Origin: Verrucomicrobiaceae bacterium
GTDB lineage: Bacteria; Verrucomicrobiota; Verrucomicrobiia; Verrucomicrobiales; Verrucomicrobiaceae
Direction of reading: 5' to 3'
Length of the DNA stretch: 64,000 bases
NCBI GenBank assembly: GCA_019694165.1
Contig: JAIBCL010000032.1
Location: 1-64,000, forward strand
Shown here: piece after piece, positions 12,382 to 62,532 of the stretch
Layout of the letters: each line of letters begins with the position of its first letter
Numbering within the stretch: the first letter of the stretch is position 1
Program-made: the position numbers and the translations under genes
Notes under the pieces: model-generated
What the model was told of the DNA's origin: nothing
The model's input: only the letters and a program-made list of their open reading frames with translations
Database searches by the model: none

Positions 12382-14316
12382 ATGAAGAAATCGGACAAAA
12401 CAAGCAGTCTGGGTTCAGCGGAGCTGATGCATCCGGCGCGTCTGTTTGGTCTCCGGATCAATGTGCAGCAGATCATCAAGTGGTTCTTCGGCACGAACGC
12501 GGGCATCGCCATCTTTGTGCTCGTGCTCATCATGCTTTCGCTGCTGCGCGAAGGTGCTGGGTTTCTGCCGACCTACCGCCGCGAGCTGGGCGTCTATCGC
12601 AAGGCGGGTCTCGAATACTGCGACTACGTGAAGAAACCGCTGACGGAGAATCAGGAGCTGCTCAGCAAGCTCAGACGCGCGCTGAATGCGGAGTTGAACA
12701 CGATCTCCAAGGCCGCGCGCGATCGTCGCGATGCCGCTCTGCTGGTAAAGCAGCACATCGAAGACAAATCCGCCCTCGCTCGCGAGCCGCTCGAGGAAGC
12801 GCTCGCTGCGAAGGAGCCGGTCGCGCCGGAGAAAATCGCCGCGCTGCGCAAAGCAGTCACCGAGGCGAATGCAAAGGCGATCGAGACAGAGATCATGCCC
12901 GCGCTTTTCACTGCTGAGGAACAGAAGCGACTGAAGAAAGATCTGTTGTCTCTTCAGCCCGATCAGGAAGATGCGCCACCGTTCATCAAGGAACTCACCG
13001 ACCTTGCTGCCGCAAAGGACGGCGAAGCGCGCGAGAAACACGCTGCCTTCGTCTCCGCTGTCGATGCTTTTGAAGAAGCCGTTGATCCCATCACAGAAGT
13101 TCACGATGCGATGGAGGAACTGGCTCTCGCGACGAAGGAGAAGGCCGTGCAGCTCCACATGGCGGAAGATGCAAAAGCCAAGCTGCTCGAAGCTGCGGCG
13201 AACGCTAAGACCGACTCGGAGAAGCAGGCCTTCATCAAGGACGCCGAGGCGACTTCGCTGGAAGAGATCGACTACAAGGCTGGCATCGAGCCTTTGCTCG
13301 CGAAGCTGCCGGAGATTGAGAAGTTGATGCCGGCGTATCGCGAGGCGGTGACGAAGGCCTTCGCTGATCTGCCGAAAAAGGTGGGTGATGCCGAAGCGCA
13401 GCGATTGCTCGACAAAGCGCGCTCGCAGCTTCCCACGCACCTGAAGCATCTCGACGACTCGCTCGCGCTCATGAAGCAATGGGACTACGCGAAGCCCGTG
13501 CCGAAGGTGCAGGCGACGGTCGCGTTTCTCTTCGGTGGCGACTGGATCACGAACAGCTCCTGGCAGGATTTCTACGGTGTCGTGCCCCTCTTCGTCGGCT
13601 CATTGCTCATCGCCGTAGTCGCGATGGTGATCGCGGTGCCATTCAGCATCGCGGCGGCGGTTTACACGAATCAATTCGCCAGTCCTCGTGAGCAGGAAAT
13701 CATCAAGCCGGTGATCGAGTTCATCCAGGCCATCCCGTCGGTCGTGCTCGGCTTCATCGGCATCTCGGTGCTCGGCGATCTCATCAAGGAGCTGAGCCAT
13801 CTGCCTGCTCTGGCGTGGATTCCCGGCTTTCCGGTGCAGGAGCGGCTGAACATGTTCAATGCCGGATGTCTCCTCGCGCTGATGGCGGTGCCCACGATGT
13901 TCAGCCTCGCCGAAGATGCGATCAACAACGTGCCGACTTCCTTCGCGGAAGCTTCTGACGCGCTCGGTGCGACCAAACTGCAAACCGTCTTCCGCGTCGT
14001 GATTCCAGCAGCGAGTTCGGGCATCGTCGCCGCGATCCTGCTCGGACTCGGCCGCATTCTCGGTGAGACGATGGTCGTGCTGCTCGTCGCCGGCAATCGC
14101 ATCGCCATCCCCGATTTCTCCGATGGCATCGGAACTGTCTTCCAGCCAGCGCACACGCTCACCGGCATCATCGCGCAGGAGCTTGGCGAGGTTTCGCGCG
14201 GCTCATCACACTGGCAGGCGCTCTTCATGGTGGGGGTGCTTCTCTTCTTCCTCTCGCTGTTGATCAACTACCTCTCACGCCTCGTCGTGCGGCGGTTTCG
14301 TCATTACAAGATTTGA
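12382..14316 (+). CDS. pstC: Phosphate ABC transporter permease with large coiled-coil insertion
   Basis: At 644 residues this is about twice the usual PstC length. The first membrane helix (about 40-55) is followed by some 320 residues rich in Ala, Glu, Lys and Leu with strong coiled-coil character (about 57-375); the remaining permease helices and the BPD_transp core begin near residue 395, including the EAA loop FAEASDALGATKLQTVFRVVIPAA. The insertion should lie on the outer face, where PstS docks. A similar but smaller expansion is seen in PstA. The 318 bp to pstA hold repeat copy 4. Confidence 0.9.
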   Translation: MKKSDKTSSLGSAELMHPARLFGLRINVQQIIKWFFGTNAGIAIFVLVLIMLSLLREGAGFLPTYRRELGVYRKAGLEYCDYVKKPLTENQELLSKLRRALNAELNTISKAARDRRDAALLVKQHIEDKSALAREPLEEALAAKEPVAPEKIAALRKAVTEANAKAIETEIMPALFTAEEQKRLKKDLLSLQPDQEDAPPFIKELTDLAAAKDGEAREKHAAFVSAVDAFEEAVDPITEVHDAMEELALATKEKAVQLHMAEDAKAKLLEAAANAKTDSEKQAFIKDAEATSLEEIDYKAGIEPLLAKLPEIEKLMPAYREAVTKAFADLPKKVGDAEAQRLLDKARSQLPTHLKHLDDSLALMKQWDYAKPVPKVQATVAFLFGGDWITNSSWQDFYGVVPLFVGSLLIAVVAMVIAVPFSIAAAVYTNQFASPREQEIIKPVIEFIQAIPSVVLGFIGISVLGDLIKELSHLPALAWIPGFPVQERLNMFNAGCLLALMAVPTMFSLAEDAINNVPTSFAEASDALGATKLQTVFRVVIPAASSGIVAAILLGLGRILGETMVVLLVAGNRIAIPDFSDGIGTVFQPAHTLTGIIAQELGEVSRGSSHWQALFMVGVLLFFLSLLINYLSRLVVRRFRHYKI

Positions 14317-47600: not shown

Positions 47601-50600
47601 TCCACTTCATCGGGCAGCGCATACTCGCCGACCGACGGGCTTCCGAAATCCATCACGACGTAGATGTCGAGATTGGCATCTTCCGCGTGCGCCTTCAGGT
47701 CCTGGAGATCGACGCGGAAATAGAAATTCCCGTCGCCACCGAGCGACGTGGAGCCGCCATCGTGCGCGTAGAAGGCCACGATGTCGCGGCTCGAGTCGTA
47801 GCCGTCGTTCGCTTTATAGACATCACTTCCCTGGTTGTTCGTGCCGTCGCCATCGTATTCATCGAGTGCGAGCAGGTCGTTGATCGTCCAGTCGGTGAAC
47901 TCCTGGTTGTTCGTCACGCCACCGATCACGATCGACGGCGACTTCGGTCCGATCGTGATGCTGCCGGGCGGCGGCGGAGGAATCGTGTTGTCTTCCTTCG
48001 GATTCGTTCCGTTGGCGAGTTCCTGGAGATTCGTGAAGCCATCGCCATCGGGATCGCCGCTGCCGCCGTTGATCGGATTGCCCGCGAGGCCGGTGCGCAT
48101 GTTCAGCGTGCCGTTGTCGAGCGGATCGAGGCCGTATTTCACTTCCCAGCCGTCGGGAAGGCCGTCGCCGTCCGTGTCGCGATTCAAAGGATCGGTCTCC
48201 GTCCAAAACTCGCCGCTGTCGTAGATGCGATTGTTGTTCGTGTCACCGGCGATGCGGCCGTTGCCATCCTTGTCTTCGCCAAAACCATCCGTCGCGCCGT
48301 CGCCATCAGTGTCGGGGTTGTTGGGATCAGTCTCGGTCCAAAACTCCCCCGGCTCTTGCACATGGTTCGGCCAGTTGCGGCCGAGATAGGGATTGTAGCT
48401 GACGGGCAAAGGCTCGCCGTCGCCGGTGTTGAACACGCCGTTTCCGTTCCGGTCCGTAAAACTCTCGCCCGTGTCCCATTTGCCGTTGCCGTTCGAGTCT
48501 ATCCAAGGTTCGCCGTCCACCCATCCGTTGTGATTGGCGTCCTCAATGCCGTCGGCAATGCCGTCGTGATCGCTGTCGGGATCGTTTGGATCGGTGACGC
48601 CGCCGCGCAATTGCTTGCTCCGATCGCCGCCCTCGCTCGCGGTGTTCACGCCAGGCACCTTGTTCAAATTGTCGAGCGTGTTGTAGAACGGCGGATCGAG
48701 ATCGCCGACGAAATTTGGCACGCCGTCGCCGTCCGTGTCGCGCGAGAGAATGGTCCCAAAATCAAATCTGCCGTTCCCGTTGGTGTCGGTGAACGGCTCG
48801 CTCGCTTCGCCTGTGTCATGGAGTCCGTTTCCATTGACGTCATTCCAGTCGAAGACGCCGTCTCCCGCCCCTGTGTTGTTGGGGCCGTAGCCGGTGTCAG
48901 TGAATGACTCGCCGACGATCGTCGCATTTCGCCAGCCGACTTCGAGCGCATCGGGCAGTCCGTCGCCATCGGTGTCAGGATTCAACGGATCGCTTTTGCC
49001 GAACGCATTGTGAATGTGCACCTCGCCGTTCGTCCACTGCTCGGCGTTTGGTTTGTATTTGGGATCGTCGGTCGGATAGCCATTCGGCAAAGGCGTGTCG
49101 GTTCCTTCGTCGGCATCGAGGAGGCCGTCGTCATCGTCATCGGGATCCGCAGCTGCGGCCGGAACGACCTGACGGAAGACGACCTTCGCGCGGCGATTGT
49201 CGAAACTCTCGCCAGTCGGTGAAACGACACGCGCCTCGAAGCGGAACTCGCCCTCGGTCATGCCAGACCACGTGAAGTCCCAGAACTTTGTGCTGCCTTC
49301 CGTCGTCACGACCGGCGTGCTGAAATTGATGGGACCGGCGGTGACGTTCATCGTCACACTCGTCGCGTCGGTGCCGGTGCTCACGCGCACGACGTAGCTG
49401 CGCTCGGCGGCGGAGGGCGATGCTTTGTCCGGCAGCACGATCTCGAAGGGCTTTCCATCGCTGTCGAGTTCCGGCGGTGTGATGATGGAGATGCGCGGCT
49501 TGTTCGATGGCGCGGCTTTGACGATGCGCTGCGTAACAAGATCGGGGTCCGGCGATGTGCGGTCAAAGGTGACCTCGATCTTGTGCAGGTAGTCGGGCTG
49601 GTCGTTGTAGAGATTCGGTAACGGGAACGCCAGTTCATGGTAGTTCGCATTGGCGTTGTAGTTGATCGTGAAATTGTCACGAGCCTGCGCGGTGCCGATC
49701 GTATCGTCGTTCGCGCCGATGCGGATGGTGAACTTGTTTATGAGCTGCGTCGTCGTCAGTCCGTCAGCGAGCGACTTCGTGAAGAAGACCTTCATCACAT
49801 AGTTGTCATCGACCGTGTCGCCATCCGTCTGCGGATAAGCGACGAAGACACGGTAATCCGGCCCTGCCGTGTTCACCGTGCGCTGCAGCGTCGTGTAGTG
49901 ACCGGCGGCATCGCTGAGCGCGAAGTCCTTGTAGGCGGCCGATGACACCTCGCGCAGGCGCACCTTGATCGTCGCGGTGCCAGTGGCCGGGATGTTCGAG
50001 TAATTGAGCCGCCACTCTTTTTGATACGACGAATTAATGTTCAGCGAAGGCGTCACCTCGCTCGCCTTCACCCACGACGTGATCGCGGTGCCGCTGGCGG
50101 GATTCACGTTGCTGCCATCCCACACGCCGTTTTCGTTGAGGTCTTGGAAAGGCTCGCCGGAGTCGTGATTGCCGTTCTTGTTCGAGTCGGTGTAGGGCTC
50201 GAAGCCCATGCCGTTGCCGTTCGCCACGCGCGTGACGCTGTCGTCATTCGACGGGTCGGTGTCGTCGATGTTATACCAAACTTCCGTCACACTCGGATCG
50301 GTGCGGACCACCACGCCATACGAACTGCCGCCAACGGTGTCGCCATTCGTCGTCGGGAAAGCCACTTCGCCACCGGGCGGCAGCGCATCGTAGTAGAAGG
50401 TCTGCGTGAAGGTGTTGTAGATGCTCGCCTGCCCATCGCGCTGGAGGAATGCGCGCGCACGGATGACATGGAAGCCTTCCTCGAGTCCGTTCACAATCGC
50501 GCCGTAGTCGTTGTGCGGACGATGCGCGACAGTGGTGAGGTTCCGCGGCGTCGTCTGGAATGTGGTCTGCATCTTCTGCTTGCGATCGACCGAGGCCGCG

Positions 50601-53227
50601 TTGCCGGGGAACCACGGCGGCGCGCCTTCCTTGTAGATGCCGATCTTGTATTTCGATGTGGCCGTGAAGTCGCCCGGCAGCGCGCACTTCCACCAGTCGG
50701 TGGTGCCGCCGTCGTCATTGTGGTCAAAGTTCATCTCGGCCGTCTTTGTTTTCCCAGCGCCCATGCCCGCCGCGCCTTCGGGATTCGAGCCATCGGTCGT
50801 GTAATAGAGGAACATCTTGTAGCCGCCGCCGACTGCGTTCGGCTTGGCCCAGAGTTGATTGCGCGAGGCGTCGTATTGATTGCGCGCCGGCGTGATGTTG
50901 CCGACGGGCGCGGAGGGATCGTGATAAAGGAAGATCGCCGTGTCTCCATCGATGAGCTTCGTGCCCGCGCCGTTCACGCGCGTCGTGGTCGTGTAAGTCT
51001 CCGCGCCGGGCGAGCCGGTGACATTGCGTGCACCCGTATCCACGGCGGCGAACAACTCGGGATGAATGCGGCTGACGAAAGTCGGCTGCTCGTAGCCTTG
51101 AAACACATCGGTCGAGATCGCGGGCGGATTGTCGCGCGGGTCGCCGAGCGCGTGGTTCGTGCCATTGAGATCCATGCCGCCATCGAGCTTCAGCAAAACA
51201 TTGGCCGCCGAGCCATCGACACGCGCGATGAAACGCACCGCCGAGCCGTCGGTGATGCGTGGCACCGTGGCGCTGTATTTGTAATCGGTGACGTTCGTGT
51301 CCGTCGGCAGAATAGGCTTCGCGGCATCCGGCAGCGTGGTGCCGTTGAACGCCTTGTCGCCGTTCGGTCCGTCTTTGCGCACATAAGACACGGTCGGGCA
51401 TTCGACTCCGCCCTGCGTGATCGTGATCGGCCTGCCGCCTCCATTCCTCCAGCCGAGCGCCGGGTCGGGATTCTTCCACGAGAAGATGAAGTAGCCGCCA
51501 CTCGGCACGACAACCGTGTTCAGCTCTTCCTTGAACTTGTAAAAGCCGCCGCCAACCCACGAGTAGTTGTAGAGATACGCGCCGGCCGGAAATGATGTGT
51601 TGAACGTGCGCGCCTGACCGCTCGCGTAGTTGTCATTAATCATGAAAAGCATCGTCACACCGTCGGAGTCGGCCATTGCGCCGTTCTCACGCTTGTCGAT
51701 GCGCTCGTAAGCGATGAAGTCGGCGTCACTCCACTTCCCCACCTGATAGCCGCGCGCGAATTGATCATGGATGTAAGTGAGGTTCGGCACGCGGCCGTCG
51801 CCGAACTGGCCGAGGAAGGCCGTGTTTGCGTGGCGAGGAAAAGCGCCGCCGCTCTCGCCGAGCGTCTCGGCCTGGTAGTTGCCGTCCGTGTAGATCAGCC
51901 CCATGCCTTCGCGGGTGAAATACATCGCGTGCTGCAGTTCACGACGCGCGGCGTAGTCGTTGTCGTGGCTTTGCGCGTGAGCCACTCCCACACTGGCAGC
52001 AAAACCGCCCGCGCCGGGCTGGTCGTAGCCGTTCAGGCCGTCGCTCGGATTGCCAAGCTTCGAGTTCAAGTTGTTGCGCAGCACATTGTCCACGAGGCGC
52101 ATCCCCGCGTCGATGTAGGGGCCGTAAGCTGGCGGCTCCCCGAGATGTTCGCCGAAAAGCATCGCGTCATCGCGACCCGCCTCGGTGTTAAAGACGGAAT
52201 CACGATGATTCGCATCGCTGAAGCCGCGCGTGATGTTGAACTGCCGCTGCACCTGGCCGCTGTAGCCGTAGTCGCTCGAGTCCTTGTCCGCGCCGAACGT
52301 GGCGCCGAAGAAGTCCGCGTGCACGTGCTTCACTGCATCGAGACGAAGCCCGTCGGCTTTGGTGCGATCGATCAGCCACCGCGCCGCGCGATTGAGGTAG
52401 TCCTGCACATACTCCTCGTACTTCGATTTGTTCGTCGTGAGGTAGTTCTGCGCCCACGCCTTTGCCTGAGCATCGCTCGCCGATGGCCCGAGATTCGCCG
52501 GCTGGCGCGCCATCGCGATGAGACCGCCGAAGCCGATGTAGTTCCCGTCCTTGTCATAGCAGTATTGCTCCGGCCGCTCGTAGTCGCGGATGAATTTGAT
52601 CTTCGGCCACGTGCTGCCTTCCGTTTTGCCGAAGTTCAGATTCGTCGTGCCCGGCTCCTGCGCGATGTCGATGAGATCCGCCAGCCCAAGCTGCTGCACC
52701 TGCCACGCATCGTTCCACGAGCGCGTGTTGTCCCATTTGCGATAAAACCCTTCCGTCGTCAGCCGCAGATGGAAATCCTCCGGCAGCATGCCCGGATACA
52801 AATCGACCGGCGTCGTCTCATTGTAGCCCGGCACGTCGAACGCGCGGTGGTTCATGATGTTGTCGAAGTAGATGCGGATGCCAAAGCGATGCGCCGTCTC
52901 CACCAGCCGCAGCAATTCCGCCTCCGTGCCGTAGCGCGTCTTCACCGAGCCTCGCTGATTCTTCGAGCCGAGATCGAACGGATCAAACATGTCATACCCC
53001 ACGCTCAATCCACCGCTCCCCTTTGTCGGTGGCGGCAGCCAGATCGCGCCATAGCCAGCTTCCGCCAGCTCGGGCATCTTGTTCGTGATCTCCTTCCAAG
53101 AGGTATTGAAGTATTGCACCATCGTCTCAGCACGGAGCGAAGAATCGAGCACGACGCATACAAGCATCGTCCCCACAAGGAGGCGGATGCTGCGGGTCGG
53201 GTTGAAGTGACGGATGATCCCGGACAT
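44645..53227 (-). CDS. Giant secreted amylase with GH13 and GH57-like modules (2860 residues)
   Basis: Signal peptide about 12-33. The GH13 domain (about 35-560) keeps FDNIMNH (Asp122, His127), GLRLDAVKH (nucleophile Asp297), LFGEHLG (Glu360) and AQSHDND (His421, Asp422). Residues 560-1350 are beta-rich sugar-binding and Ig-like modules. Residues 1350-1745 hold many TSP3-like calcium repeats (DTDGDGLPDALEVGW type). A glucodextranase-C-like/DOMON domain follows (about 1752-2040), then a second catalytic-looking domain (about 2032-2330) with MHITPTLASAIQWA, VLYPPERVLD (Glu2170 as likely nucleophile) and VLHCDWSDF, which resembles GH57/GH119. The last 150 residues form the CxP-like end domain. 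Predicted to degrade starch or related alpha-glucan. Confidence 0.85.
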   Translation of the reverse strand: MSGIIRHFNPTRSIRLLVGTMLVCVVLDSSLRAETMVQYFNTSWKEITNKMPELAEAGYGAIWLPPPTKGSGGLSVGYDMFDPFDLGSKNQRGSVKTRYGTEAELLRLVETAHRFGIRIYFDNIMNHRAFDVPGYNETTPVDLYPGMLPEDFHLRLTTEGFYRKWDNTRSWNDAWQVQQLGLADLIDIAQEPGTTNLNFGKTEGSTWPKIKFIRDYERPEQYCYDKDGNYIGFGGLIAMARQPANLGPSASDAQAKAWAQNYLTTNKSKYEEYVQDYLNRAARWLIDRTKADGLRLDAVKHVHADFFGATFGADKDSSDYGYSGQVQRQFNITRGFSDANHRDSVFNTEAGRDDAMLFGEHLGEPPAYGPYIDAGMRLVDNVLRNNLNSKLGNPSDGLNGYDQPGAGGFAASVGVAHAQSHDNDYAARRELQHAMYFTREGMGLIYTDGNYQAETLGESGGAFPRHANTAFLGQFGDGRVPNLTYIHDQFARGYQVGKWSDADFIAYERIDKRENGAMADSDGVTMLFMINDNYASGQARTFNTSFPAGAYLYNYSWVGGGFYKFKEELNTVVVPSGGYFIFSWKNPDPALGWRNGGGRPITITQGGVECPTVSYVRKDGPNGDKAFNGTTLPDAAKPILPTDTNVTDYKYSATVPRITDGSAVRFIARVDGSAANVLLKLDGGMDLNGTNHALGDPRDNPPAISTDVFQGYEQPTFVSRIHPELFAAVDTGARNVTGSPGAETYTTTTRVNGAGTKLIDGDTAIFLYHDPSAPVGNITPARNQYDASRNQLWAKPNAVGGGYKMFLYYTTDGSNPEGAAGMGAGKTKTAEMNFDHNDDGGTTDWWKCALPGDFTATSKYKIGIYKEGAPPWFPGNAASVDRKQKMQTTFQTTPRNLTTVAHRPHNDYGAIVNGLEEGFHVIRARAFLQRDGQASIYNTFTQTFYYDALPPGGEVAFPTTNGDTVGGSSYGVVVRTDPSVTEVWYNIDDTDPSNDDSVTRVANGNGMGFEPYTDSNKNGNHDSGEPFQDLNENGVWDGSNVNPASGTAITSWVKASEVTPSLNINSSYQKEWRLNYSNIPATGTATIKVRLREVSSAAYKDFALSDAAGHYTTLQRTVNTAGPDYRVFVAYPQTDGDTVDDNYVMKVFFTKSLADGLTTTQLINKFTIRIGANDDTIGTAQARDNFTINYNANANYHELAFPLPNLYNDQPDYLHKIEVTFDRTSPDPDLVTQRIVKAAPSNKPRISIITPPELDSDGKPFEIVLPDKASPSAAERSYVVRVSTGTDATSVTMNVTAGPINFSTPVVTTEGSTKFWDFTWSGMTEGEFRFEARVVSPTGESFDNRRAKVVFRQVVPAAAADPDDDDDGLLDADEGTDTPLPNGYPTDDPKYKPNAEQWTNGEVHIHNAFGKSDPLNPDTDGDGLPDALEVGWRNATIVGESFTDTGYGPNNTGAGDGVFDWNDVNGNGLHDTGEASEPFTDTNGNGRFDFGTILSRDTDGDGVPNFVGDLDPPFYNTLDNLNKVPGVNTASEGGDRSKQLRGGVTDPNDPDSDHDGIADGIEDANHNGWVDGEPWIDSNGNGKWDTGESFTDRNGNGVFNTGDGEPLPVSYNPYLGRNWPNHVQEPGEFWTETDPNNPDTDGDGATDGFGEDKDGNGRIAGDTNNNRIYDSGEFWTETDPLNRDTDGDGLPDGWEVKYGLDPLDNGTLNMRTGLAGNPINGGSGDPDGDGFTNLQELANGTNPKEDNTIPPPPPGSITIGPKSPSIVIGGVTNNQEFTDWTINDLLALDEYDGDGTNNQGSDVYKANDGYDSSRDIVAFYAHDGGSTSLGGDGNFYFRVDLQDLKAHAEDANLDIYVVMDFGSPSVGEYALPDEVDTGTQMRWEAVVACYATDNGAVYVDTNHALNTTAYNQALTGVGVVRRTQANADGFKKAWFNSNLDAVEFSISRQALIDAGWNQDPNNINFQVFTTKDGTQNSPVGAGDIGGRGDIRDTILDDVQASSYWRDQSSLTGDKAVLKSWFSATSTNNDKWKRAKVVSLIHEARPLLPGSEVQALLNNGAGGGWYRPLDVHEAFGVPLAMHITPTLASAIQWAKVDPAVNKPWRDGPSLNSRIGTLATNGIVQFTGTTFADHILPYFPQSYTQASISDASQFMSDVYGSAPSSAVLYPPERVLDTTAMNVIQGCGFTATFADQSRHIEKWFGRASSLGSDGYRINRVNGTKLVVINDSTSAFRFDNNDGGLGLPLRQMLNRRARSSQQDQVVVLHCDWSDFTTKAQADAYDLNIAWMASHPWVQLVTPQQILAGAVDSNRDGVGDTWPVVERGTTTLANVSKDFLHHATQENYDNWFFGQPGLEESLSAKLFNIRPATPMSLPWGQVGVSGVSNTAWSSASALSPTNPLRLLARNTFHASAWLTAFHNQTSNDLTRFSTGAYVYPDTTNQSLAGFSKAAQSQARWAYVYQRVTTWANAATAGTYDSTSGTESADVDLDGEAECMILNKRVFALFERIGGRMTAAWVRDIANGKVFQCVGNPVSYSGFETEEEGAVNVINGAVGSYRTSGFKDWYAGGVNSVGYNNDLYSATATTNGFIFTSSDGKITKTITLQPNKDALRAVYALTGGITTLYSRHGLSPHLAHLLKTGQTNLSALANFSGQIETLTTGADGIVRAYVEPLASTTWNSGAIDDDPGLGVTFDTINMRNQAQTQQIELSGTTGMTFELGFQTGPTLTRDSDGDGLPDSWELANGLNGGDASGANGAAGNPDGDGLNNLSEYILGTNPNAADVYVPGVAKVPAGFTVSFSTIPNRGYKIYYSDDLATWNLLGSEVTGDGTTKTVTDDGTASTPAPNTRPQRFYRVEVRVLNP

Positions 53228-53430: not shown

Positions 53431-54132
53431 TCACGAGGTCGCTTCATTGGTGATCCATTTCAGCGCGTCAGGACCCGTCATGAAAAGGAGATCAAATATG
53501 CTCACCTGCGGATCATACGGCGGATGAAGCTGTGGATACTCGCGGTAGGCATAGTCGATGTACTCGAGGCCAATGCCCGCGGCCGCGAACTTCTCCGGCT
53601 CGATATAGGCGCGCGCCGACGGGCCGCTGATGTAATGCGTGGCTCCGACGAGCTTGAGGAGCTGGACCAGCCGGTCGGTCTTCGCGCCTTCGAGCTGGTA
53701 GTCGGACGAGCGGGCGAAGCGGGTGTGCCCGATGCCCAATAGCCGCGAGAGAGCTATGGTGGTGTCGATGGTGAAGTCTGCGAGGCGCTCGTCCCTGCGG
53801 CGGTAGAAGGGTTCCATCAACGGAGCCATCGCGCGGAAATGTGGCGCCTTTGCGTAGGCCTGGGAGATGGAACTCCAGTGCTTCCGCGCCCAGTCCTGGG
53901 TCCACTGGATGCGGATGTCCTTGATCGGCACGCCCTCCGTCACCACGCCCTTGGTTTCCACCGGAATGGTCAGCCAGATGGGGCCGTTGGCGGTCTTGAT
54001 GCGGTTGCGATTCCCCCAGCCGCCCTTTTCGTACTGAACGTCATCGTAGAAGACGAACAAGTCGGAGCGGCGGATGAGATCGAACAATCCTCTCCATGGG
54101 ATGTAGGCGGGCTGCAGGACGACGCAGGTCAT
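53431..54132 (-). CDS. WbqC-family protein
   Basis: The 233-residue product is full length for the family and begins with the typical VVLQPAYIPWRGLFDLIRRS, followed by FVFYDDVQYEKGGWGNRNRI, IWLTIPVE and a late HPPYDPQVSIFDLLFMTGPD. WbqC proteins occur in surface polysaccharide clusters and have been proposed to modify sugars, perhaps by amide formation, but their chemistry is not settled. The start is ATG 54132. It is the last gene of a four-gene minus-strand operon, 11 bp after the acyltransferase gene. Confidence 0.85.
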   Translation of the reverse strand: MTCVVLQPAYIPWRGLFDLIRRSDLFVFYDDVQYEKGGWGNRNRIKTANGPIWLTIPVETKGVVTEGVPIKDIRIQWTQDWARKHWSSISQAYAKAPHFRAMAPLMEPFYRRRDERLADFTIDTTIALSRLLGIGHTRFARSSDYQLEGAKTDRLVQLLKLVGATHYISGPSARAYIEPEKFAAAGIGLEYIDYAYREYPQLHPPYDPQVSIFDLLFMTGPDALKWITNEATS

Positions 54133-54143
54133 GAGTGCGGAGG

Positions 54144-54812
54144 CTAGAGCTTGAGTCCGCGCTCCACGCGGCGCATGGGATTGCCGATCCAATGGGTGCC
54201 AGCGTCGGTGATGGAGCGTGTGACCACGGTACCGATGCCGAGGATGCAGCGGTCCTCGACGGCGAGGTCATTGGCGACGAGCACGCCCGCGCCGAGAAAA
54301 CACTCGGCCCCGATGCGTACGCGGCCACACACGGTGGCGCGCGGCGAAAGATAAGCACACTCGCCGATGTGCGAGTCGTGGGAGACGATGGCGCCATTGT
54401 GCAGCAGCGTGCCCATGCCGATGATCGCATTCGCGTCCACAATGGCGCCCGGCAGAAAAATGCAGCCTGCGCCGATGGTGGCGGACGGATCGAGGCTGGC
54501 GGACGGATGCGCCACGACGGGCAGGCGGCGGCCGAGGGAAACGAGCTGGCGCATCAGCCTGCGGCGCAGCGCAGCGTGGTGGTAGCCGAGGCAGACAAAG
54601 AAGTCACAGCCGGCGAATTCGTCGCTGACATGGTCGGCGAAAGGCCGCGCTCCGGCACCTCCGGCCGCCAGGAAGTGATCATCGAAAAATATCTCCTCCG
54701 TGTATGTCATGCTCATGCGCGCGAGCCGGGCCACCTGCTCGCCCATGGCACCGAAGCCGACAAAGGCGGCGCGGCGGACGACGGCGGATGGAGCTGTGGC
54801 ATTGTCCGGCAT
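54144..54812 (-). CDS. NeuD-like sugar O/N-acyltransferase
   Basis: The 222-residue product has an N-terminal Rossmann-like part (AAFVGFGAMGEQVARLARMS) and a left-handed beta-helix of hexapeptide repeats (about 105-215: SASLDPSATIGAGCIFLPGA, IVDANAIIGMGTLLHNGAIV, SHIGECAYLSPRATVCGRVR). The catalytic His is expected in NGAIVSHDSHIG. Enzymes of this group transfer acetyl or other acyl groups to amino or hydroxyl groups of nucleotide-activated sugars. A 4-amino sugar made by the aminotransferase encoded at 60207 would be a fitting substrate. Confidence 0.8.
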   Translation of the reverse strand: MPDNATAPSAVVRRAAFVGFGAMGEQVARLARMSMTYTEEIFFDDHFLAAGGAGARPFADHVSDEFAGCDFFVCLGYHHAALRRRLMRQLVSLGRRLPVVAHPSASLDPSATIGAGCIFLPGAIVDANAIIGMGTLLHNGAIVSHDSHIGECAYLSPRATVCGRVRIGAECFLGAGVLVANDLAVEDRCILGIGTVVTRSITDAGTHWIGNPMRRVERGLKL

Positions 54813-54833
54813 GGGAGCGAGAGCAGCGGCGGC

Positions 54834-55793
54834 TCAGGAGCTGCGGGTAGTGTCGCCGATTGCGTAGGGCGGCTTGTTGTTTGTGCGATGAAAAATGCGG
54901 GCGAGATACTCGCCCATGATGCCGAGCACGAAGAGCTGCACTCCGGCGAAGATGCTCACGATGGAAGCCAGGAATGGGAAACCCGGGACGGAACCGCCGG
55001 TGGCGACGTAGCGCAGGAGCACGTACGCCTGCACACCTATGCCGAAGATCACGGCGATCCCGCCAAGAAAGCTGGCGAGCCGCAGCGGCGCGGTGCTGAA
55101 GCCCACGAGCACCAGCACGGCCTGGTTCAGCAGGCGCATAAAGGTGTAGCCGGACTTGCCGCGCGCCCGCTCGCGATGCTCGACAGTGACGGTGCCAAAG
55201 CGTGTTGTGCCCCACGAGAGGAGCACGTCGAGCAGGAGATTCGGCGCGTCGAATGCGGCAAAGGCCGCGCGCAGCTTCGTGCGCAGCGCACGGAAGGCGG
55301 AGATGTGCCGCGCTTCCGGCACGCCCATGGCGATGGAGAGCGCGCCCTTGGTGGCCACCGAAAGCAGGTCACGCACAAATCCGTGCCTGCCCTCCTCCGG
55401 CGTGCCGTAGACGACGTCGAAACCCTCTTCGAGCTTCGCAAGCAAGAGCGGGATGTGCTCGGGCGGGTGCTGGAGATCATCGTCAAGAGTGACGACCGTG
55501 TCGAAGCACGCAGAGCGCAGACCGCAGAGGAGTGCGTTGTGCTGGCCGTAGTTCCGCATCAGGCAAATGCCGCGCAGCCACGGCCGGCTGGCGGCCAGTT
55601 CCGTGATCACCTCCCAGCTCCGGTCGGGGCTGCCGTCATTGACGAGCACCACCTCGAAGGACTTGCCCGTGCGCTCGAGCACAGGTTGGAGCTGGGCGAC
55701 GAGGTCGGGCAACGTCTCCGCACTGCGATACACGGGCACCAGCACGGAGATGCCCTTCGGCAAGCTTGGAGATGTATCTTCCGCGGGTTCCAT
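54834..55793 (-). CDS. GT2-family glycosyltransferase, GtrB/ArnC type
   Basis: The 319-residue product has a GT-A domain (about 10-220: SVLVPVYRSAETLPDLVAQL, VLVNDGSPDRSWEVITELA, VTLDDDLQHPPEHIPLLLAK with the metal-binding DxD type) and two C-terminal membrane helices (about 235-300). This is the layout of enzymes that load a sugar onto undecaprenyl phosphate, as ArnC and GtrB do. The start is ATG 55793. It would supply the lipid-linked sugar to the GT-C protein encoded 20 bp upstream in the same operon. Confidence 0.85.
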   Translation of the reverse strand: MEPAEDTSPSLPKGISVLVPVYRSAETLPDLVAQLQPVLERTGKSFEVVLVNDGSPDRSWEVITELAASRPWLRGICLMRNYGQHNALLCGLRSACFDTVVTLDDDLQHPPEHIPLLLAKLEEGFDVVYGTPEEGRHGFVRDLLSVATKGALSIAMGVPEARHISAFRALRTKLRAAFAAFDAPNLLLDVLLSWGTTRFGTVTVEHRERARGKSGYTFMRLLNQAVLVLVGFSTAPLRLASFLGGIAVIFGIGVQAYVLLRYVATGGSVPGFPFLASIVSIFAGVQLFVLGIMGEYLARIFHRTNNKPPYAIGDTTRSS

Positions 55794-55813
55794 GGCAGAT
55801 GGTGTCACGCGCG

Positions 55814-57487
55814 TCACGGCTTCACCGGCTTGGGCTTGAAGGCAAGCCAGCAATTCGCCGCCGTCTCCACTTTCACGGGAGGCGCGAGGTGGTCGATGAA
55901 AGTCTGCCGCATGGCGGGCGGCACGCGCAGCCACTCCTCCGTGCGCCAGGTGGCAGGATCGTCCGTCACCGCCAGCGCATCGCCGTCAGCAGGCAGTTTG
56001 ACGAGGTGCACGGAGCTGTTCAGGAATGCGTTCATCACCTTGTCGCGCTCGTAAGGCCGCACCCACTCCGGGGCGATCAGGTAGCCGTGCCTGGATGCCT
56101 CGGGCCAGCCCATGTAGTGATGCCAGCCGGCGCTGATCGCGCGCCAGACGACCACCGTACCCGTGCTGCCAGCAGCGGGGTCTTTGAGCACCGCACCGAC
56201 GCCGGCGCTGACTTGTTCAAAGACGGCCTTGTCCTTTGGCTTCATCCAAAGCGTCTCGCCGTTCGGCATCGCCACCCGCACGCGTCCGTCTTTCTGCAGC
56301 AAGAGCTTGCCGCCGACCGCACCGCCTGTGCAGGCAAAGAGAATGCCCGCAATGAACAGCCGCGGCAACGGCTTGAAGCGCGCCAGCATCGCCACAGCCG
56401 GCACGATGAGCGGCGCGGAGTAAACCATCACATGATCCGGGTGATGGTAGTAAAACAGAAAACCGACGAAGAAAGACAGGGCCGCCAGCAGCACCATGCC
56501 GTCCGCCGCCGGAGGCCTGCCTCGTGCACGAGCCGTGCGCACCAGAGACACCACCGCCCCGCAGGCCACCAGCAGCATCAGCAGGGTGCGGGAGCCAATG
56601 GTGCCGATGCGGTAGCCCCAGGTGGCCTCGCGCACCCACGGCACAACGGCCCACGGATCGCCGAAGGTGTCGTAGCTCCCGAGCAGATCGAGGGGAAACA
56701 TGGCGTACTCGCGCCAGATTTCCGGCGGGAACACGAACCATGACACGATCACACGCGGCAGTTCGACGGCCAGGAAGCCGAACAGCACCGGCAGTTCCGC
56801 CTTCACCACCTGGTCCATGAAATGCGACACGATGCCGCTGCCGTCCCGCCGGAGTGAAAACGCGCGGATCGCATCCCACGCGATGATCGCCAGGCCGGCG
56901 CAGAGGAAGGAGCCGAACTTCGTGAGATTCAGCAGCCCCAGCAGCACGCCCGCGGCGAAGCCGGCCAAACGCGTGCGTTCATCCACCGGACTCAGAAAGC
57001 TGAAGATGGTGACGACCAATGCGAGCTCGATGTTCTGATAGGCCAGCGTGTTCGTACACGCGTGCCAGAGCGCCGGAGCCACAAGCAGGCACCAGAGCGC
57101 CCAGCGCATCCGCGTGCCCACACCCGATCGGCGCAGGAAATGCATCCCGCTCGCCGCGCCTACCGCGCCCGGCAGCACGCCGAACAGCGCGACCGTGTGC
57201 GCCGTGGAGCCGAAGATCTTCGCGGCGGCAGCCAGGTACCAGACGGAGAGCACGCCGTAGGAGTAGGCGGCATCCCGATAGATCATGCCGCCTTTCAAGA
57301 GGTGGTCCCCCACCCACAGCGGCCACGACGGCTCGCCGAAAAGCCACGTCTCATGCACGAAGAATGACTCGCGTAGTTGGAAGACGATCACGGTGAAGGC
57401 GGCCCACAACGCGCCGGCCAGCACAATCTCACCCCAAGCGGGGGATGCCGCTCCATCGGAGCCGGGGTCGCGCGTTTTGTTCTGCAT
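55814..57487 (-). CDS. Polytopic GT-C-like membrane glycosyltransferase
   Basis: The product is 557 residues, with about ten membrane helices. The first outer loop after helix 1 has FFVHETWLFGEPSWPLWVGD, with acidic residues where GT-C enzymes keep their catalytic Asp/Glu, and a soluble C-terminal domain of about 150 residues follows the last helix. It looks like an ArnT or dolichol-mannosyltransferase-type enzyme using a polyprenyl-phosphate sugar made by the neighbouring GT2. The start is uncertain (ATG 57487 used; ATG 57505 possible). It is divergent from the deoxysugar operon. Confidence 0.65.
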   Translation of the reverse strand: MQNKTRDPGSDGAASPAWGEIVLAGALWAAFTVIVFQLRESFFVHETWLFGEPSWPLWVGDHLLKGGMIYRDAAYSYGVLSVWYLAAAAKIFGSTAHTVALFGVLPGAVGAASGMHFLRRSGVGTRMRWALWCLLVAPALWHACTNTLAYQNIELALVVTIFSFLSPVDERTRLAGFAAGVLLGLLNLTKFGSFLCAGLAIIAWDAIRAFSLRRDGSGIVSHFMDQVVKAELPVLFGFLAVELPRVIVSWFVFPPEIWREYAMFPLDLLGSYDTFGDPWAVVPWVREATWGYRIGTIGSRTLLMLLVACGAVVSLVRTARARGRPPAADGMVLLAALSFFVGFLFYYHHPDHVMVYSAPLIVPAVAMLARFKPLPRLFIAGILFACTGGAVGGKLLLQKDGRVRVAMPNGETLWMKPKDKAVFEQVSAGVGAVLKDPAAGSTGTVVVWRAISAGWHHYMGWPEASRHGYLIAPEWVRPYERDKVMNAFLNSSVHLVKLPADGDALAVTDDPATWRTEEWLRVPPAMRQTFIDHLAPPVKVETAANCWLAFKPKPVKP

Positions 57488-57784
57488 ACGGGAAAGTGAT
57501 GGCATGGGGGCTGATCCAGGGCCGTGACCGCCAGAAAGCCGCGTGGATGCGATCTTTGCGACCACGAGCCTCGCACACCGCCTGCCCGCCCGTCGTCAGG
57601 CCGCGCTCCGTCCTGTCTTTCCAGCAGTGGCACGTTGGGCGAGTGAAGCGAGTAATCAAGTGCGGAAAAAACGGCGGGGGTTGGCACCGGTGCATGTTTC
57701 GGAATGAAGGAGCAGACCGCCCGGGTTTGCGGTTGCGGAATGCCATGCCGCTTGTATGCCTGCGCGCGCTTCACTTCTTCCTCG

Positions 57785-59215
57785 ATGACCGGTTCCGCAC
57801 CATCTCCCGGCAGTCTTTTTCTACAGTCCGCCCTGGCGGCGGAGGGGCATGGCCTGCCTGCGGCAGAGTTCGACGCGTGGTTTGCGGGCCGGCAGCGGGC
57901 GCATCGTTTCAAGCTGGAGCAGATTCCTTTCGCGGACCTGAAGAAGTGGTCGTTCCATCCGGAGTCCGGGAATCTCGTGCATGACAGCGGGCGCTTCTTC
58001 AGCATCGAGGGCCTGCGGGTGCGTACAAACTGGGGCAAGGTGCCCGAATGGGAGCAACCCATCATCGTGCAGCCGGAGATCGGCATCCTGGGCTTCATCA
58101 CGAAGCGCTTCGGCGGCATCCTGCATTTTCTGGTGCAGGCAAAGATGGAGCCAGGGAACATCGACATGATCCAGCTCGCGCCGACGCTGCAGGCCACGCG
58201 GAGCAATTTCACCTGCGTGCATCAGGGCAGGAAGCCTCCCTATCTGGAGTATTTCCTCGACCGGTCCGGCAGCCGGGTGCTCGTGGACGTACTACAGTCC
58301 GAACAGGGCGCGCGGTTTCTGCGGAAGCGCAACCGCAACATCATGATCGAGACCGACGAGGAAGTGCCTGTGGGCGACGACTATGTGTGGATGACGCTCG
58401 GCCAGCTTCTGCGTCTGCTGCGGCGGGACAACGTGGTGAACATGGACGCGCGCACCGTGCTCTCTTGCATCACCTACGCGCTCGACGGCGGCGAGCCGCC
58501 CGTCGCGACCACCGGCGGCCAGTTCGGACAGGCTCTGTGGCGGTCGTTCCAGGCCGTGGGGCGCGGGCTGCGGAGCAATGAGGAGGTGCTCAGCTGGTTC
58601 ACCCAGCAGAAGTTTGCCTTCGATCTCGATGCCGGACGCATACCGCTCCAGACAGTGCGCGGGTGGGAGCGCACGGACATGGAAATCCGACATGAGACCG
58701 GGCGCTACTTCAGTGTGATGGCCTGCGCGGTGGAGGCCGACAACCGCGAGGTGCCAAGCTGGACGCAGCCGATGGTAAAGGCCCAGCAGCAGGGCCTCAT
58801 CGCCTTCGTGGTCCGGGAGTTCGATGGCGTGCTTCACTTTTTGGTGCAGGCCAAGGTCGAGCCGGGCAATTTCGACGTGGTTGAAATGGCGCCGACGGTC
58901 CAGTGCATCACAGGCAGCTACCATGATGCCGATCCCGCCCTGCTGCCGCCATTCGTGCCTTACGTGCTTTCCGCGCAGCCGGAGAGCATCCTTTTCGATG
59001 CGCTGCAGTCCGAAGAAGGCGGACGCTTCTTCCGCGAGGAGAACCGGAATCTGATCGTGGCAGCCGGCCCGGACTTCCCCGACGACATCCCGTCGAACTA
59101 CATCTGGATGACGGCCGGTCAGCTCAATGAGTTTATCAAGTTCAACAATTTCGTGAACGTGCAGGCGCGCAGCCTGCTCTCCACGCTGAGTTTCGCGGAG
59201 CCGGACCGGTCATGA
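57785..59215 (+). CDS. NDP-hexose 2,3-dehydratase (EvaA/TylX3 family)
   Basis: The 476-residue product has two tandem copies of the hexose-dehydratase domain. Each has the pattern W-x-Q-P-x-x-x-x-x-x-x-G-[IL], [IF]-x-x-x-x-FG/FDG-x-LHFLVQAK-[MV]-E-PGN, then the APT segment, a DxLQSEEG/EQG-x-R-F block and VWMT-x-GQL. The N-terminal start SLFLQSALAAEGHGLPAAEF is typical of the family. It removes the C2 hydroxyl of an NDP-4-keto-6-deoxyhexose, giving an unstable 3,4-diketo intermediate that the next enzyme must reduce or aminate. Such enzymes are best known from antibiotic sugar pathways. ATG 57785 is used; an upstream ATG at 57704 is possible. Confidence 0.9.
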   Translation: MTGSAPSPGSLFLQSALAAEGHGLPAAEFDAWFAGRQRAHRFKLEQIPFADLKKWSFHPESGNLVHDSGRFFSIEGLRVRTNWGKVPEWEQPIIVQPEIGILGFITKRFGGILHFLVQAKMEPGNIDMIQLAPTLQATRSNFTCVHQGRKPPYLEYFLDRSGSRVLVDVLQSEQGARFLRKRNRNIMIETDEEVPVGDDYVWMTLGQLLRLLRRDNVVNMDARTVLSCITYALDGGEPPVATTGGQFGQALWRSFQAVGRGLRSNEEVLSWFTQQKFAFDLDAGRIPLQTVRGWERTDMEIRHETGRYFSVMACAVEADNREVPSWTQPMVKAQQQGLIAFVVREFDGVLHFLVQAKVEPGNFDVVEMAPTVQCITGSYHDADPALLPPFVPYVLSAQPESILFDALQSEEGGRFFREENRNLIVAAGPDFPDDIPSNYIWMTAGQLNEFIKFNNFVNVQARSLLSTLSFAEPDRS

Positions 59216-60177
59216 TCCCTTTGCACGTCGGAGTCCTTGGCTGTTCGAGCTTCGCCCGCCGGGCGATGATCCCGGCGCTGGTGCAAAGCGGCGTGGCGCA
59301 GTGCGTCGCGGTCGCCAGTCGTTCACATGAGAAGGCCGCGGAGACCGCCGCGCCCTTCGGCGCGGAGGCCGTGTGCGGCTACGAGCGGCTCATCGAGCGC
59401 GCCGACATCGACGCCATCTATGTGCCGCTGCCCACCGGCCTCCATGCGGAATGGTGCACGCGCGCGCTGGAAGCCGGCAAGCACCTGCTGGTGGAGAAAA
59501 CTTTCGCCTCCAATGCGGCGGAGGCCGCGGCGATGCTCGCTCTCGCGCGACGGCAAAACTTGCTGGTGATGGAAAACTTCCAGTTCCAGACGCATTCACA
59601 ATGGAGCCGCTTCCGCTCCTTCATGGACTCCGGCGAGATCGGTCATGTGCACCTCGTGCGCTCAACCTTCGGCTTCCCGCCGCTCCCTCGGGAAAACTTC
59701 CGCTGGAATGCCGCCTTGGGCGGCGGTGCTCTGCTCGACACCGGCGCCTACATGGCAAAGGTGTCGCAATTGCTGCTCGGGCCGGATCTCGAGGTACGAG
59801 GCGCTTCTGCGATCATGGACGCCGCCACCGGCGTGGACAGCCACGGAGAGGCGCAGTTCCGCAATGCACGGGGCCAGGTGGCGCAGGTGGCCTGGGGATT
59901 CGATTACTTCTACCAGTGCCGCGCGGAGCTGCTCGGCACGAAGGGCAAGGTCTCGCTGGGCCGCGTCTTCACCGCACCGCCGGACTTCGCGCCCGTGCTT
60001 TGCATCGAGACGCCGGAGGGCGTGCGGAATGAAACCCTGCCCGCCGACAACCACTACATCAACATGTGGCGCCGCTTCGCCGGTGCCATTGCCAACGGCG
60101 ACCACGCCGCACACTGGGACGCCATTGAGAGCCAGGCCCGGCTGCTGGATGCCATCCGTGCCGCGGTGCGGGCATGA
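59212..60177 (+). CDS. Gfo/Idh/MocA-type NDP-sugar 3-ketoreductase (KijD10-like)
   Basis: The 321-residue product has the NAD(P)-binding start VGVLGCSSFARRAMIPALVQ, the nucleotide loop VASRSHEKA, the catalytic Lys in LLVEKTFASNAAEA and the C-terminal fold typical of the family (GGGALLDTGAYMAKVSQLLL). The MENFQFQTHSQW stretch is a feature of the KijD10/TylCII-like C3-ketoreductases. It overlaps the dehydratase gene by 4 bp (ATGA), so the two enzymes work in sequence: 2,3-dehydration, then C3 reduction. Product stereochemistry at C3 cannot be read from the sequence. Confidence 0.8.
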   Translation: MIPLHVGVLGCSSFARRAMIPALVQSGVAQCVAVASRSHEKAAETAAPFGAEAVCGYERLIERADIDAIYVPLPTGLHAEWCTRALEAGKHLLVEKTFASNAAEAAAMLALARRQNLLVMENFQFQTHSQWSRFRSFMDSGEIGHVHLVRSTFGFPPLPRENFRWNAALGGGALLDTGAYMAKVSQLLLGPDLEVRGASAIMDAATGVDSHGEAQFRNARGQVAQVAWGFDYFYQCRAELLGTKGKVSLGRVFTAPPDFAPVLCIETPEGVRNETLPADNHYINMWRRFAGAIANGDHAAHWDAIESQARLLDAIRAAVRA

Positions 60178-60206
60178 ATTGAACGGAGAGATTCAAGAGT
60201 TCTGTG

Positions 60207-61355
60207 ATGAAAATACCCTTCAACATCCCCTATCTGACCGGCCGCGAGGAAGAGTACTTTCTCGCCGCGCTCAAGTCGCGCCGGCACTGCGGCAATCACG
60301 CCTTCGGCCAGAAGTGCGTCGAGCTGATGAAGCACAAGTACGGCTTTCATGAAGTATTCCTCACGCCGAGCGGCACGGCCGCGCTCGAAATGGGATGCCT
60401 GCTCGCAGACATCGGCCCCGGCGACGAGGTGATCCTGCCGTCCTACACGTTCAGTTCCACCGGCAATGCGGTGGTGCTCACCGGTGCGAAGCCCGTGTTT
60501 TGCGAGGTCGATCCCGACACGATGAACGCCGACGTGCGCCACATGGCCTCGCTCGTCACGCCGCGGACAAAGCTGCTGCTGCCGATCGACTACGCCGGCA
60601 TCCCGTGTGATCGCACCGCGGTCAATGCCCTGGCGAAAAAACACGGCCTGTCCGTCCTGGTGGATGCCGCACAGTCGATCCACTCCTTCGCGAATGGCAA
60701 ACCCTGCGGGGCCGACGAGGACATGGCGGCCTTCAGTTTCCACGAAACGAAGAACCTGGGCTGCGGCGAAGGCGGAGGTCTCGTGGTGAACCGCCCCGAG
60801 TGGGTGGAACGCGCGCGCTTCCTTCAGGAGAAGGGTACCGACCGCTCGCTCGTCCTGAGCGGCGTGCGCTCCAAATACAGTTGGGTGGACAAGGGATCGA
60901 GCTTCCTGCTGGCCGATCTGCTGGCCGCCTTGCTGCTGGCGCAGATCGAGGACGTGGAGATCATCACGAACAAGCGCAAGAAAGTCGCCGCGGCCTACCA
61001 CGCACTTTACGGCCCCTACGAGAAAGCCGGCGCACTGCGCATCCCTCATCCGCCGGCGGGCGCGGATTGCAACGGGCACGCCGTCTTCGTCATCTTCGAC
61101 ACCGCGGCGAACCGCGACCGCTTCCTGGCCCTGCTGCGCGAGAAGGACGTTCATGCCTACATCGGCTACCTGCCGCTGCACTCGTCGGTGATGGGGCGGT
61201 GCCATGGCTGCAGGCCGGAAGACCTGCCCCTGACCGAGGATCTCGCTGCGCGTATCGTGCGCCTGCCGCTCTACACGGACCTCGCGGACACCGGTCTCGA
61301 CCACTGCGTGGAAGCAATGCAAACGGTGCTTCAGGCCATGTACGGCACGGCCTGA
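60207..61355 (+). CDS. DegT/DnrJ/EryC1 aminotransferase, WecE-like
   Basis: The 382-residue product is full length. IPFNIPYLTGREEEYFLAAL followed by KSRRHCGNHAFGQKCVELMK matches the start of WecE/RffA, the dTDP-4-keto-6-deoxyhexose 4-aminotransferase, and FSFHETKNLGCGEGGGLVVN contains the PLP-binding Lys with WecE context. It is a PLP enzyme that transfers an amino group from glutamate to the C4 keto group. It follows the reductase gene by 29 bp. ATG 60207 is used, with GTG 60204 just before it; GGAGAG lies upstream. Alternatively it could act at C3. Confidence 0.88.
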   Translation: MKIPFNIPYLTGREEEYFLAALKSRRHCGNHAFGQKCVELMKHKYGFHEVFLTPSGTAALEMGCLLADIGPGDEVILPSYTFSSTGNAVVLTGAKPVFCEVDPDTMNADVRHMASLVTPRTKLLLPIDYAGIPCDRTAVNALAKKHGLSVLVDAAQSIHSFANGKPCGADEDMAAFSFHETKNLGCGEGGGLVVNRPEWVERARFLQEKGTDRSLVLSGVRSKYSWVDKGSSFLLADLLAALLLAQIEDVEIITNKRKKVAAAYHALYGPYEKAGALRIPHPPAGADCNGHAVFVIFDTAANRDRFLALLREKDVHAYIGYLPLHSSVMGRCHGCRPEDLPLTEDLAARIVRLPLYTDLADTGLDHCVEAMQTVLQAMYGTA

Positions 61356-61421: not shown

Positions 61422-62420
61422 TCAGAATCCCTTCGGAATCTGTTTCAGGGCGTCTTTGATCAGACGGTTGGCCTCGTCTTCGATGCTGTTGGTGTCTCCG
61501 CCTTTGGCGGGCTTCGAGGCTGCACCGGCGGCGGGAGGGTTCGACCAGTCGAGGCCTTGGGTGAACATCTTCACCGTGCATCCCGAGCCTGCCGGCTGGA
61601 CCATGATCGTCAGCTCAGCGCCATTGAGCTTGCGCTTGAGGATGGCGTTCGCCTTGCCCGTCAGGCTGCCGGAGGCATCCTTCCAGCCCTGCTCCTTGAG
61701 TCTTGCCGAGAAATCCTTGGCCACCGCGCTGACGGAGGCGTCCGCGCTGAATGCGATCTGCTGCACGATGGTTTTGTACTCGACATCGTGCGCGCCGGCG
61801 GGAAGCGGAAGCTGGCCGACCGGCATCTTGGGTCCCGTGGCAACCGCCGGTTCGTCATCACTTTTCTTCTTGCCGCCCTTCTTCGCAGACTTGGGCTCAG
61901 GTGCCTCCACGGCGGCGAATGCGCCTTTCGGCAGCGGCGCGGTGAAGGTCAGATCGACCTGCCACTTCTGCCCAAAGGCATCCAGTTCGCCCGGCGTAAC
62001 GACGTGTCCCGAGACCTCCGAGTCAGTTGCCTTGAAGTCCTGCACCTTGATCTCGCCAAGCGCGGAAAACGGCGACTTGGGATGCGCAGCGTGCGCCACT
62101 TCACATCCGAAAACACCGCCGTCTTTGAAAACACTGAGGATCAGGGCGCTGCCGAGCTTCTTGAAAGCAGCGTCGAAATCCGGCTTCTTCGATGATGAGG
62201 GATCCTTCTCGGTGAAAACCAGACGGATGGCCGCTTTGTCATTGAACGGCTCATGCGTCTGCACCACGAGATGCTGGATCTTGCCGTCCTTGCCGTCGCC
62301 CAGAAACTTCCCGCTGACCGTGGACTTGTCAGCGGCCGCCAGAGTGTGGAGCGAGCAGATCATCGTGGCGCTGAACAAGCAGGCCGCCGCCGGCAGCGAA
62401 AGGAGTCGTCGATTTTTCAT
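61422..62420 (-). CDS. Secreted protein with Lys-rich linker, unknown family
   Basis: I do not recognise a family. From ATG 62420 the 332-residue product has a signal peptide (MKNRRLLSLPAAACLFSATM then ICSLHTLAAAD), a first beta-rich domain (about 35-175), a Lys-rich linker (KSAKKGGKKKSDD), a second domain (about 195-270) and a polar tail. The second domain has the LKEQGWKDASGSLTGKANAI pattern of small alpha/beta domains found in repeated form in verrucomicrobial secreted proteins. It is convergent with the aminotransferase gene (66 bp gap). Confidence 0.6.
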   Translation of the reverse strand: MKNRRLLSLPAAACLFSATMICSLHTLAAADKSTVSGKFLGDGKDGKIQHLVVQTHEPFNDKAAIRLVFTEKDPSSSKKPDFDAAFKKLGSALILSVFKDGGVFGCEVAHAAHPKSPFSALGEIKVQDFKATDSEVSGHVVTPGELDAFGQKWQVDLTFTAPLPKGAFAAVEAPEPKSAKKGGKKKSDDEPAVATGPKMPVGQLPLPAGAHDVEYKTIVQQIAFSADASVSAVAKDFSARLKEQGWKDASGSLTGKANAILKRKLNGAELTIMVQPAGSGCTVKMFTQGLDWSNPPAAGAASKPAKGGDTNSIEDEANRLIKDALKQIPKGF

Positions 62421-62532
62421 GAGATCGGCAAGGCTCCTTGGCGCGCCGCAGGAATGCAACCTGTAATTTGAGCGAAGCGCCCTCCGCCTTTCAGTCTGAA
62501 TCAGGCCACCTCCGGCGCGATCCCCGGCGGGC

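Follow-up and report, generated by a model that had tools for sequence, protein, structure and literature searches.

We analysed a stretch of 64,000 nucleotides (the window) from Verrucomicrobiaceae bacterium (assembly GCA_019694165.1, contig JAIBCL010000032.1, positions 1 to 64,000), in which a first-pass annotation had read seven genes at 53431–61355 as a deoxysugar pathway of antibiotic type within a surface-glycan locus. All seven genes were intact, with every frame open, and lay where that annotation had placed them, forming two divergent operons. The plus strand carries an EvaA-type nucleoside diphosphate (NDP)-4-keto-6-deoxyhexose 2,3-dehydratase with tandem Nudix-like halves (57785–59215), a KijD10-type NDP-sugar C3-ketoreductase (KR) of the Gfo/Idh/MocA family (59212–60177) and a WecE-type pyridoxal phosphate (PLP) C4-aminotransferase (AT; 60207–61355). 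The minus strand carries, at spacings of 15–22 bp, a 583-residue protein with multiple transmembrane (TM) segments, a putative and unproven GT-C transferase (55814–57565); a family 2 glycosyltransferase (GT2) of the ArnC/PgfS/GtrB type, predicted to load a sugar onto undecaprenyl phosphate (54834–55796); a NeuD/PglD/VioB-like left-handed beta-helix sugar N-acyltransferase (54144–54812); and a WbqC family protein, which we propose to be an amide-forming (amino)acyl ligase acting on a sugar amine (53431–54129).

The ATG of the KR gene at 59212 overlaps the TGA of the EvaA gene, giving the 4-bp ATGA overlap by which the two had been described as coupled. The likely ATG of the EvaA gene is at 57785, with a longer open reading frame (ORF) beginning at 57704, and WbqC has 232 residues from its likely start, with a longer TTG ORF extending to 54192. 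A promoter scan found one promoter-like site, which is the level expected by chance, and a terminator scan found nine terminator-like sites against 5.2 expected. The host assembly is 7.8 Mb in size and contains a single copy of EvaA.

Enzyme families and the predicted product

The three sugar enzymes were all borne out by family and structure searches. The dehydratase contains two copies of PF03559 across its full length (535 bits, E = 8.6e−162) and matches the EvaA crystal structure 4j7g at E = 2.7e−126. Mutagenesis of EvaA has shown that Glu139 and Glu190 are needed (PMC8987622); its second pocket is regarded as inactive. Both glutamates of pocket A are kept in the window protein, where MEPGN and LQSEQG align with Glu139 and Glu190. 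In the second half, the window protein and nearly all of its relatives in Verrucomicrobiota keep the motifs V/L-E-[P/C/A]-G-N and SEEGG, which are partly lost in actinobacterial proteins. Judging from these residues, the second pocket of the Verrucomicrobiota enzymes (VEPGN or LECGN, and SEEGG), being better preserved than that of the actinobacterial ones, could be active.

The best solved relative of the KR was KijD10, a “sugar 3-ketoreductase” (3rbv, E = 2.9e−70), which was well ahead of other Gfo/Idh/MocA proteins. The KijD10 paper reportedly names Lys102 and Tyr186 as the catalytic residues, and their equivalents, at positions which we mapped ourselves, are kept in the window KR and in 20 of 20 aligned homologues. 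Reduction by KijD10 gives a C3 of gluco configuration. The AT matched the dTDP-4-keto-6-deoxyglucose transaminase 4piw (E = 7.2e−86; dTDP, deoxythymidine diphosphate), exceeded the cut-off of NCBIfam PRK11706 (413 bits against 375), scored below that of TIGR02379 (368 bits against 434.85) and carries the PLP lysine motif SFHETK. WecE sets an axial amine at C4. As had been noted for the window, rmlA and rmlB are both missing from the EvaA contig; the suggested search of the remaining genome found a single full-score copy of each on another contig, C12 (rmlB at 12233–13261, 477.6 bits; rmlA at 346347–347201, 475.3 bits).

In the divergent operon, the GT2 matched ArnC (9hwj) over nearly its full length (E = 1.2e−48) and GtrB sll0501 at E = 8.7e−39. 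The NeuD-like protein contains hexapeptide repeats, matched TIGR03570 at E = 1.2e−41 and has as its PDB relatives 4m98 and structures of PglD, perosamine N-acetyltransferase, VioB and pilin N-acetyltransferase. Hydropathy analysis gave seven TM segments for the multi-TM protein.

WbqC scored 261.4 bits against PF08889 (cut-off 21.3), a domain of uncharacterised function with a possible link to O-antigen (PMC5532660), and had no relative in the PDB by sequence. We built an AlphaFold2 (AF2) model from 13 sequences (predicted local distance difference test, pLDDT, 87). With VIA-align its best match was BshC (4wbd; Z 12.8, 216 of 232 residues, root-mean-square deviation 3.5), the next entry scoring 8.1. 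The matches after BshC (Z of about 8 or less) were class I aminoacyl-tRNA synthetases, phosphopantetheine adenylyltransferases and pantothenate synthetases; all of these structural matches are Rossmann-like nucleotide-using enzymes, several of them amide-forming. Foldseek on its own found nothing at E ≤ 0.001, so the likeness to BshC is at the level of the fold only. BshC is a putative ligase which joins cysteine to the amine of glucosamine-malate after the BshB deacetylase has acted, an activity which by 2015 had yet to be demonstrated in vitro (PMC4360819). Of 14 annotated plasmid loci with WbqC, eight place it within 4 kb of a sugar transaminase of the DegT family (rffA/WecE in two of them) and two within 4 kb of a PIG-L deacetylase, the latter resembling the BshB situation. 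Because BshC is the best match of the model and sugar transaminases are often adjacent, WbqC may amino-acylate the newly made sugar amine as a BshC-like ligase, which is the first concrete mechanistic hypothesis for this family. Genes for WbqC are also carried by many viral contigs.

These families suggest a pathway in which RmlA and RmlB, encoded elsewhere, would supply dTDP-4-keto-6-deoxy-D-glucose. The window EvaA is predicted from its sequence to act on this compound and to strip the C2 hydroxyl, giving a 3,4-diketo-2,6-dideoxy sugar. The KR would then reduce C3 to the gluco configuration, its coupling to EvaA through the overlap allowing the unstable diketone to be consumed at once, and the AT would aminate C4 in the galacto configuration. 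From the stereochemistry of the KijD10 and WecE families, the product is predicted to be dTDP-4-amino-2,4,6-trideoxy-D-lyxo-hexose (2-deoxy-Fuc4N). Its 4-amine would be acylated by the NeuD/PglD-like enzyme and/or by WbqC, the latter adding an amino acid. Undecaprenyl phosphate would then receive the sugar through the ArnC-like GT2, after which the multi-TM protein, acting like a GT-C, may move it, outside the membrane, onto an envelope glycan or protein. What the enzymes use as substrates, the stereochemistry, the nature of the acyl group, the GT-C role and the acceptor are inferred in this scheme. The family scores, catalytic residues, presence of rmlA and rmlB and recurrence of the gene set (below) support, as a prediction, the order of reactions set out in the first-pass annotation, leading to an NDP-4-amino-2,4,6-trideoxyhexose and then to acylation and lipid linking. 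We therefore favour, with a probability of roughly 0.7, the reading that the divergent operons together produce a single acylated 4-amino-2,4,6-trideoxyhexose and supply it to the cell envelope.

It should be noted that several results weigh against this reading, most of them from the divergent operon. The GT2 reached 170.5 bits against PRK10714, for which the equivalog cut-off is 529, so it is related to ArnC and probably alike in reaction type rather than ArnC itself. The TIGR03570 score of the NeuD-like protein (142.5 bits) is below the cut-off of 160.8. The best Pfam match of the multi-TM protein, PMT_2, was sub-threshold (11.6 bits against 26.1, E = 0.32), and this protein had no other Pfam match, no PDB match and no relative in the search of the phylum; its single-sequence AF2 model had a pLDDT of 40. 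Of the functions previously assigned to this operon, WbqC and, below their family cut-offs, the GT2 and the NeuD-like enzyme stood, and the support for the GT-C label was sub-threshold. Neither a Wzx nor a GtrA flippase was found there. Finally, as the operons are divergent, a single pathway is deduced from adjacency and not from shared transcription.

Recurrence of the gene set and alternative explanations

Among the 21 EvaA loci of Verrucomicrobiota which we read, the KR gene adjoins EvaA in 19. In one of the two exceptions the contig ends within EvaA; the other is a divergent EvaA without a detectable KR. This divergent protein (L107:3963–5264) is 33% identical, sits on a very long branch and comes from a short contig. 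The third enzyme following EvaA and KR in the 19 loci, which acts at C4, is a WecE-type transaminase in three (the window, Verrucomicrobia bacterium ADurb.Bin018 and genome G455), a DesI-type transaminase in ten and a short-chain dehydrogenase/reductase (SDR) in six, indicating that EvaA-KR is a stable core with an exchangeable C4 step. The nearest relative, ADurb.Bin018, has the same gene order, with 74% identity in EvaA, 67% in KR and 79% in the AT, and has an adjacent ArnC/PgfS-like GT2 and multi-TM proteins, one of which matches PMT_2. G455 holds the AT, EvaA, KR, a GT2 and a relative of the ADurb.Bin018 multi-TM protein in a single locus. The gene content, the three sugar-enzyme families, the catalytic residues, the rmlA and rmlB copies and this recurrence are established.

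Nevertheless, the third enzyme allows another explanation, namely that the AT uses dTDP-4-keto-6-deoxyglucose itself, giving Fuc4N, and that EvaA and KR make a separate 2,6-dideoxy sugar. The AT scores as WecE, whose known substrate retains the 2-hydroxyl, and the six loci with an SDR indicate that EvaA-KR can serve a neutral sugar. However, the window locus contains no C4 SDR, a WecE-type AT accompanies EvaA-KR in ADurb.Bin018 and G455 as well, and another transaminase occupies the same place in the ten DesI-type loci and on phage contigs, and we consider two separate sugars unlikely.

NeuD-like genes were found in 5 of 13 transaminase loci versus 0 of 6 SDR loci, a difference which has the direction expected for N-acylation but falls short of significance (Fisher P = 0.13). 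EvaA-KR is accompanied by ArnC/PgfS-like GT2 genes in the window and in loci L016, L031, L032, L102 and L106, with weaker cases in L096, L098 and L101, and PMT_2-type membrane proteins are encoded nearby in L016, L031 and L032. These neighbours support lipid-linked transfer, though glycan loci hold GT2 genes anyway.

We also considered whether the three sugar enzymes contribute to a glycosylated secondary metabolite, as their actinobacterial counterparts do, instead of to the envelope. Antibiotic pathways are the source of every characterised 2,3-dehydratase (PMC8987622), and EvaA-KR pairs with the same 4-bp overlap were found in plasmid-borne actinobacterial clusters, several of them beside polyketide synthase or glycosyltransferase genes. 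Against this, we recognised among the neighbours which we read no polyketide, nonribosomal peptide synthetase or natural-product glycosyltransferase gene; the divergent genes of the window encode an ArnC-like GT2, NeuD-like, WbqC and multi-TM proteins; and the relatives of EvaA in Verrucomicrobiota lie in glycan-type loci. The EvaA trees, covering Verrucomicrobiota, actinobacteria and phages, were sampled poorly outside Verrucomicrobiota (a scan of genome contigs with a single protein as query gave one relative). With 17 sequences the Verrucomicrobiota proteins formed one group (support 100/99); with 33 sequences, including phages, they formed two groups and a divergent sequence on an unresolved backbone, the group of the window having a support of 90/88. 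A single origin of the Verrucomicrobiota EvaA, seen with 17 sequences, was thus lost with 33. In both trees these proteins fell outside the actinobacterial group, so that a recent transfer from actinobacteria is not indicated, and a role in secondary metabolism seems improbable. EvaA-type genes extend further beyond actinobacteria than the first-pass annotation had implied in describing such enzymes as mostly known from actinobacterial antibiotic clusters.

Distant EvaA-like genes were also seen among glycosyltransferase genes on plasmids of the alphaproteobacterium Hoeflea (L051:7932–9212) and of Rhodococcus (L052:2926–4227). The Hoeflea protein lacks the second catalytic glutamate at the aligned position, VDLG replacing SEQG.

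EvaA is sparsely distributed, occurring in 7 of 388 genomes of a sample of the phylum, 17 of 346 genomes of another class and none of 56 closer relatives, including the sole genome of the same genus. This would suit an inactive remnant of horizontal transfer, which is nevertheless very unlikely as the frames are all open, the catalytic residues are intact and the GC content of the cluster is similar to that of the remainder of the window.

Phage copies, flanking genes and comparison with known systems

A scan of IMG/VR found EvaA on 14 contigs of uncultivated tailed phages (L080–L093), several of which are near-copies from the same lakes, so that there are fewer than 14 independent cases. Three of them, L082, L084 and L086, are identified as phage by the terminase, tail sheath, tail tube and topoisomerase II large subunit genes which adjoin EvaA. 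The EvaA/KR overlap is again ATGA and a DesI-type transaminase follows; a NeuD-like gene comes after the cassette in L080–L082, L086, L088 and L093 (in L086 the EvaA, KijD10-like KR, DesI-type transaminase and NeuD-like genes span 7986–11958), and WbqC lies a few kb further on in L083–L085. One phage contig carries a full-score rmlB and none of the EvaA phage contigs carries a nucleotidyltransferase. No EvaA was found in 50,697 named phage records, so the phage cases depend on the IMG/VR contigs. What use a virus would have for deoxysugar chemistry is a question which these copies pose. Tentatively, and with more doubt than confidence, they suggest a mobile, widespread module of EvaA, KijD10-like KR, C4 transaminase and N-acyltransferase and/or WbqC, which might make N-(amino)acylated 4-amino-2,4,6-trideoxyhexoses for two kinds of surface: those of Verrucomicrobiota cells, and those of cells which T4-like phages have infected (or of the virions), these phages carrying the module between tail and topoisomerase genes. 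WbqC would then form a new group of aminoacyl ligases, BshC-like and acting on amino sugars.

The cluster is adjoined at 44645–53227 by an ORF of 2860 residues, the start of which resembles a secreted alpha-amylase-type glycoside hydrolase and which contains calcium-binding-like D-rich repeats. On its other side (61422–62459) lies a gene for a 345-residue protein which matches nothing in Pfam or NCBIfam and is conserved, with 54–68% identity, in 12 of the 40 family genomes. Using this gene we looked for an empty insertion site; the other window genes were present in none of the five loci read, and an empty site could therefore not be defined.

The enzyme families at this locus are known, and it is their combination and setting which are new; using crude search terms, we found no 2,3-dehydratase in a surface-glycan or O-antigen cluster in the literature. 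An EvaA-KR-AT set in an envelope locus leads to a specific and testable prediction, namely that a 2-deoxy-4-amino sugar occurs in Gram-negative envelopes. The dehydratase resembles EvaA of the dTDP-epivancosamine pathway of Amycolatopsis orientalis (4j7g) in its tandem PF03559 halves, full-length match and equivalents of Glu139 and Glu190. It differs in that KijD10- and WecE-type enzymes follow it, within a glycan-type locus, and in a second half which keeps VEPGN and QSEEGG, that of EvaA being eroded (RVDGG). The KR matches KijD10 of the kijanimicin L-digitoxose pathway over its full length with Lys102 and Tyr186 kept, but its product would pass to a C4 transaminase instead of an epimerase and a C4 ketoreductase. 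The AT shares the PLP motif and the PRK11706 assignment with WecE/RffA, which makes Fuc4N for enterobacterial common antigen, whereas its predicted substrate has no 2-hydroxyl and it falls short of TIGR02379. WbqC, for which the putative bacillithiol cysteine ligase BshC is the top structural match, is only 13% identical to it, has no sequence-level match and lacks its extra coiled-coil length. As a whole, the locus is alike in logic to the Arn system (ArnB-ArnC-ArnT), which places 4-amino-4-deoxy-L-arabinose on lipid A, in that a 4-amino sugar would be N-acylated before loading by an ArnC-like GT2 and passed to a putative membrane transferase. However, the sugar here would be a dTDP-2,6-dideoxyhexose in place of the uridine diphosphate-pentose of the Arn system, and the transferase is not recognisable as ArnT. 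Since the GT2 is below the ArnC equivalog cut-off and neither ArnA nor ArnT was recognised, the locus falls outside the Arn system; by analogy, we predict for it an Arn-type mode of decoration with a 4-amino sugar, supplied by a deoxysugar pathway of antibiotic type.

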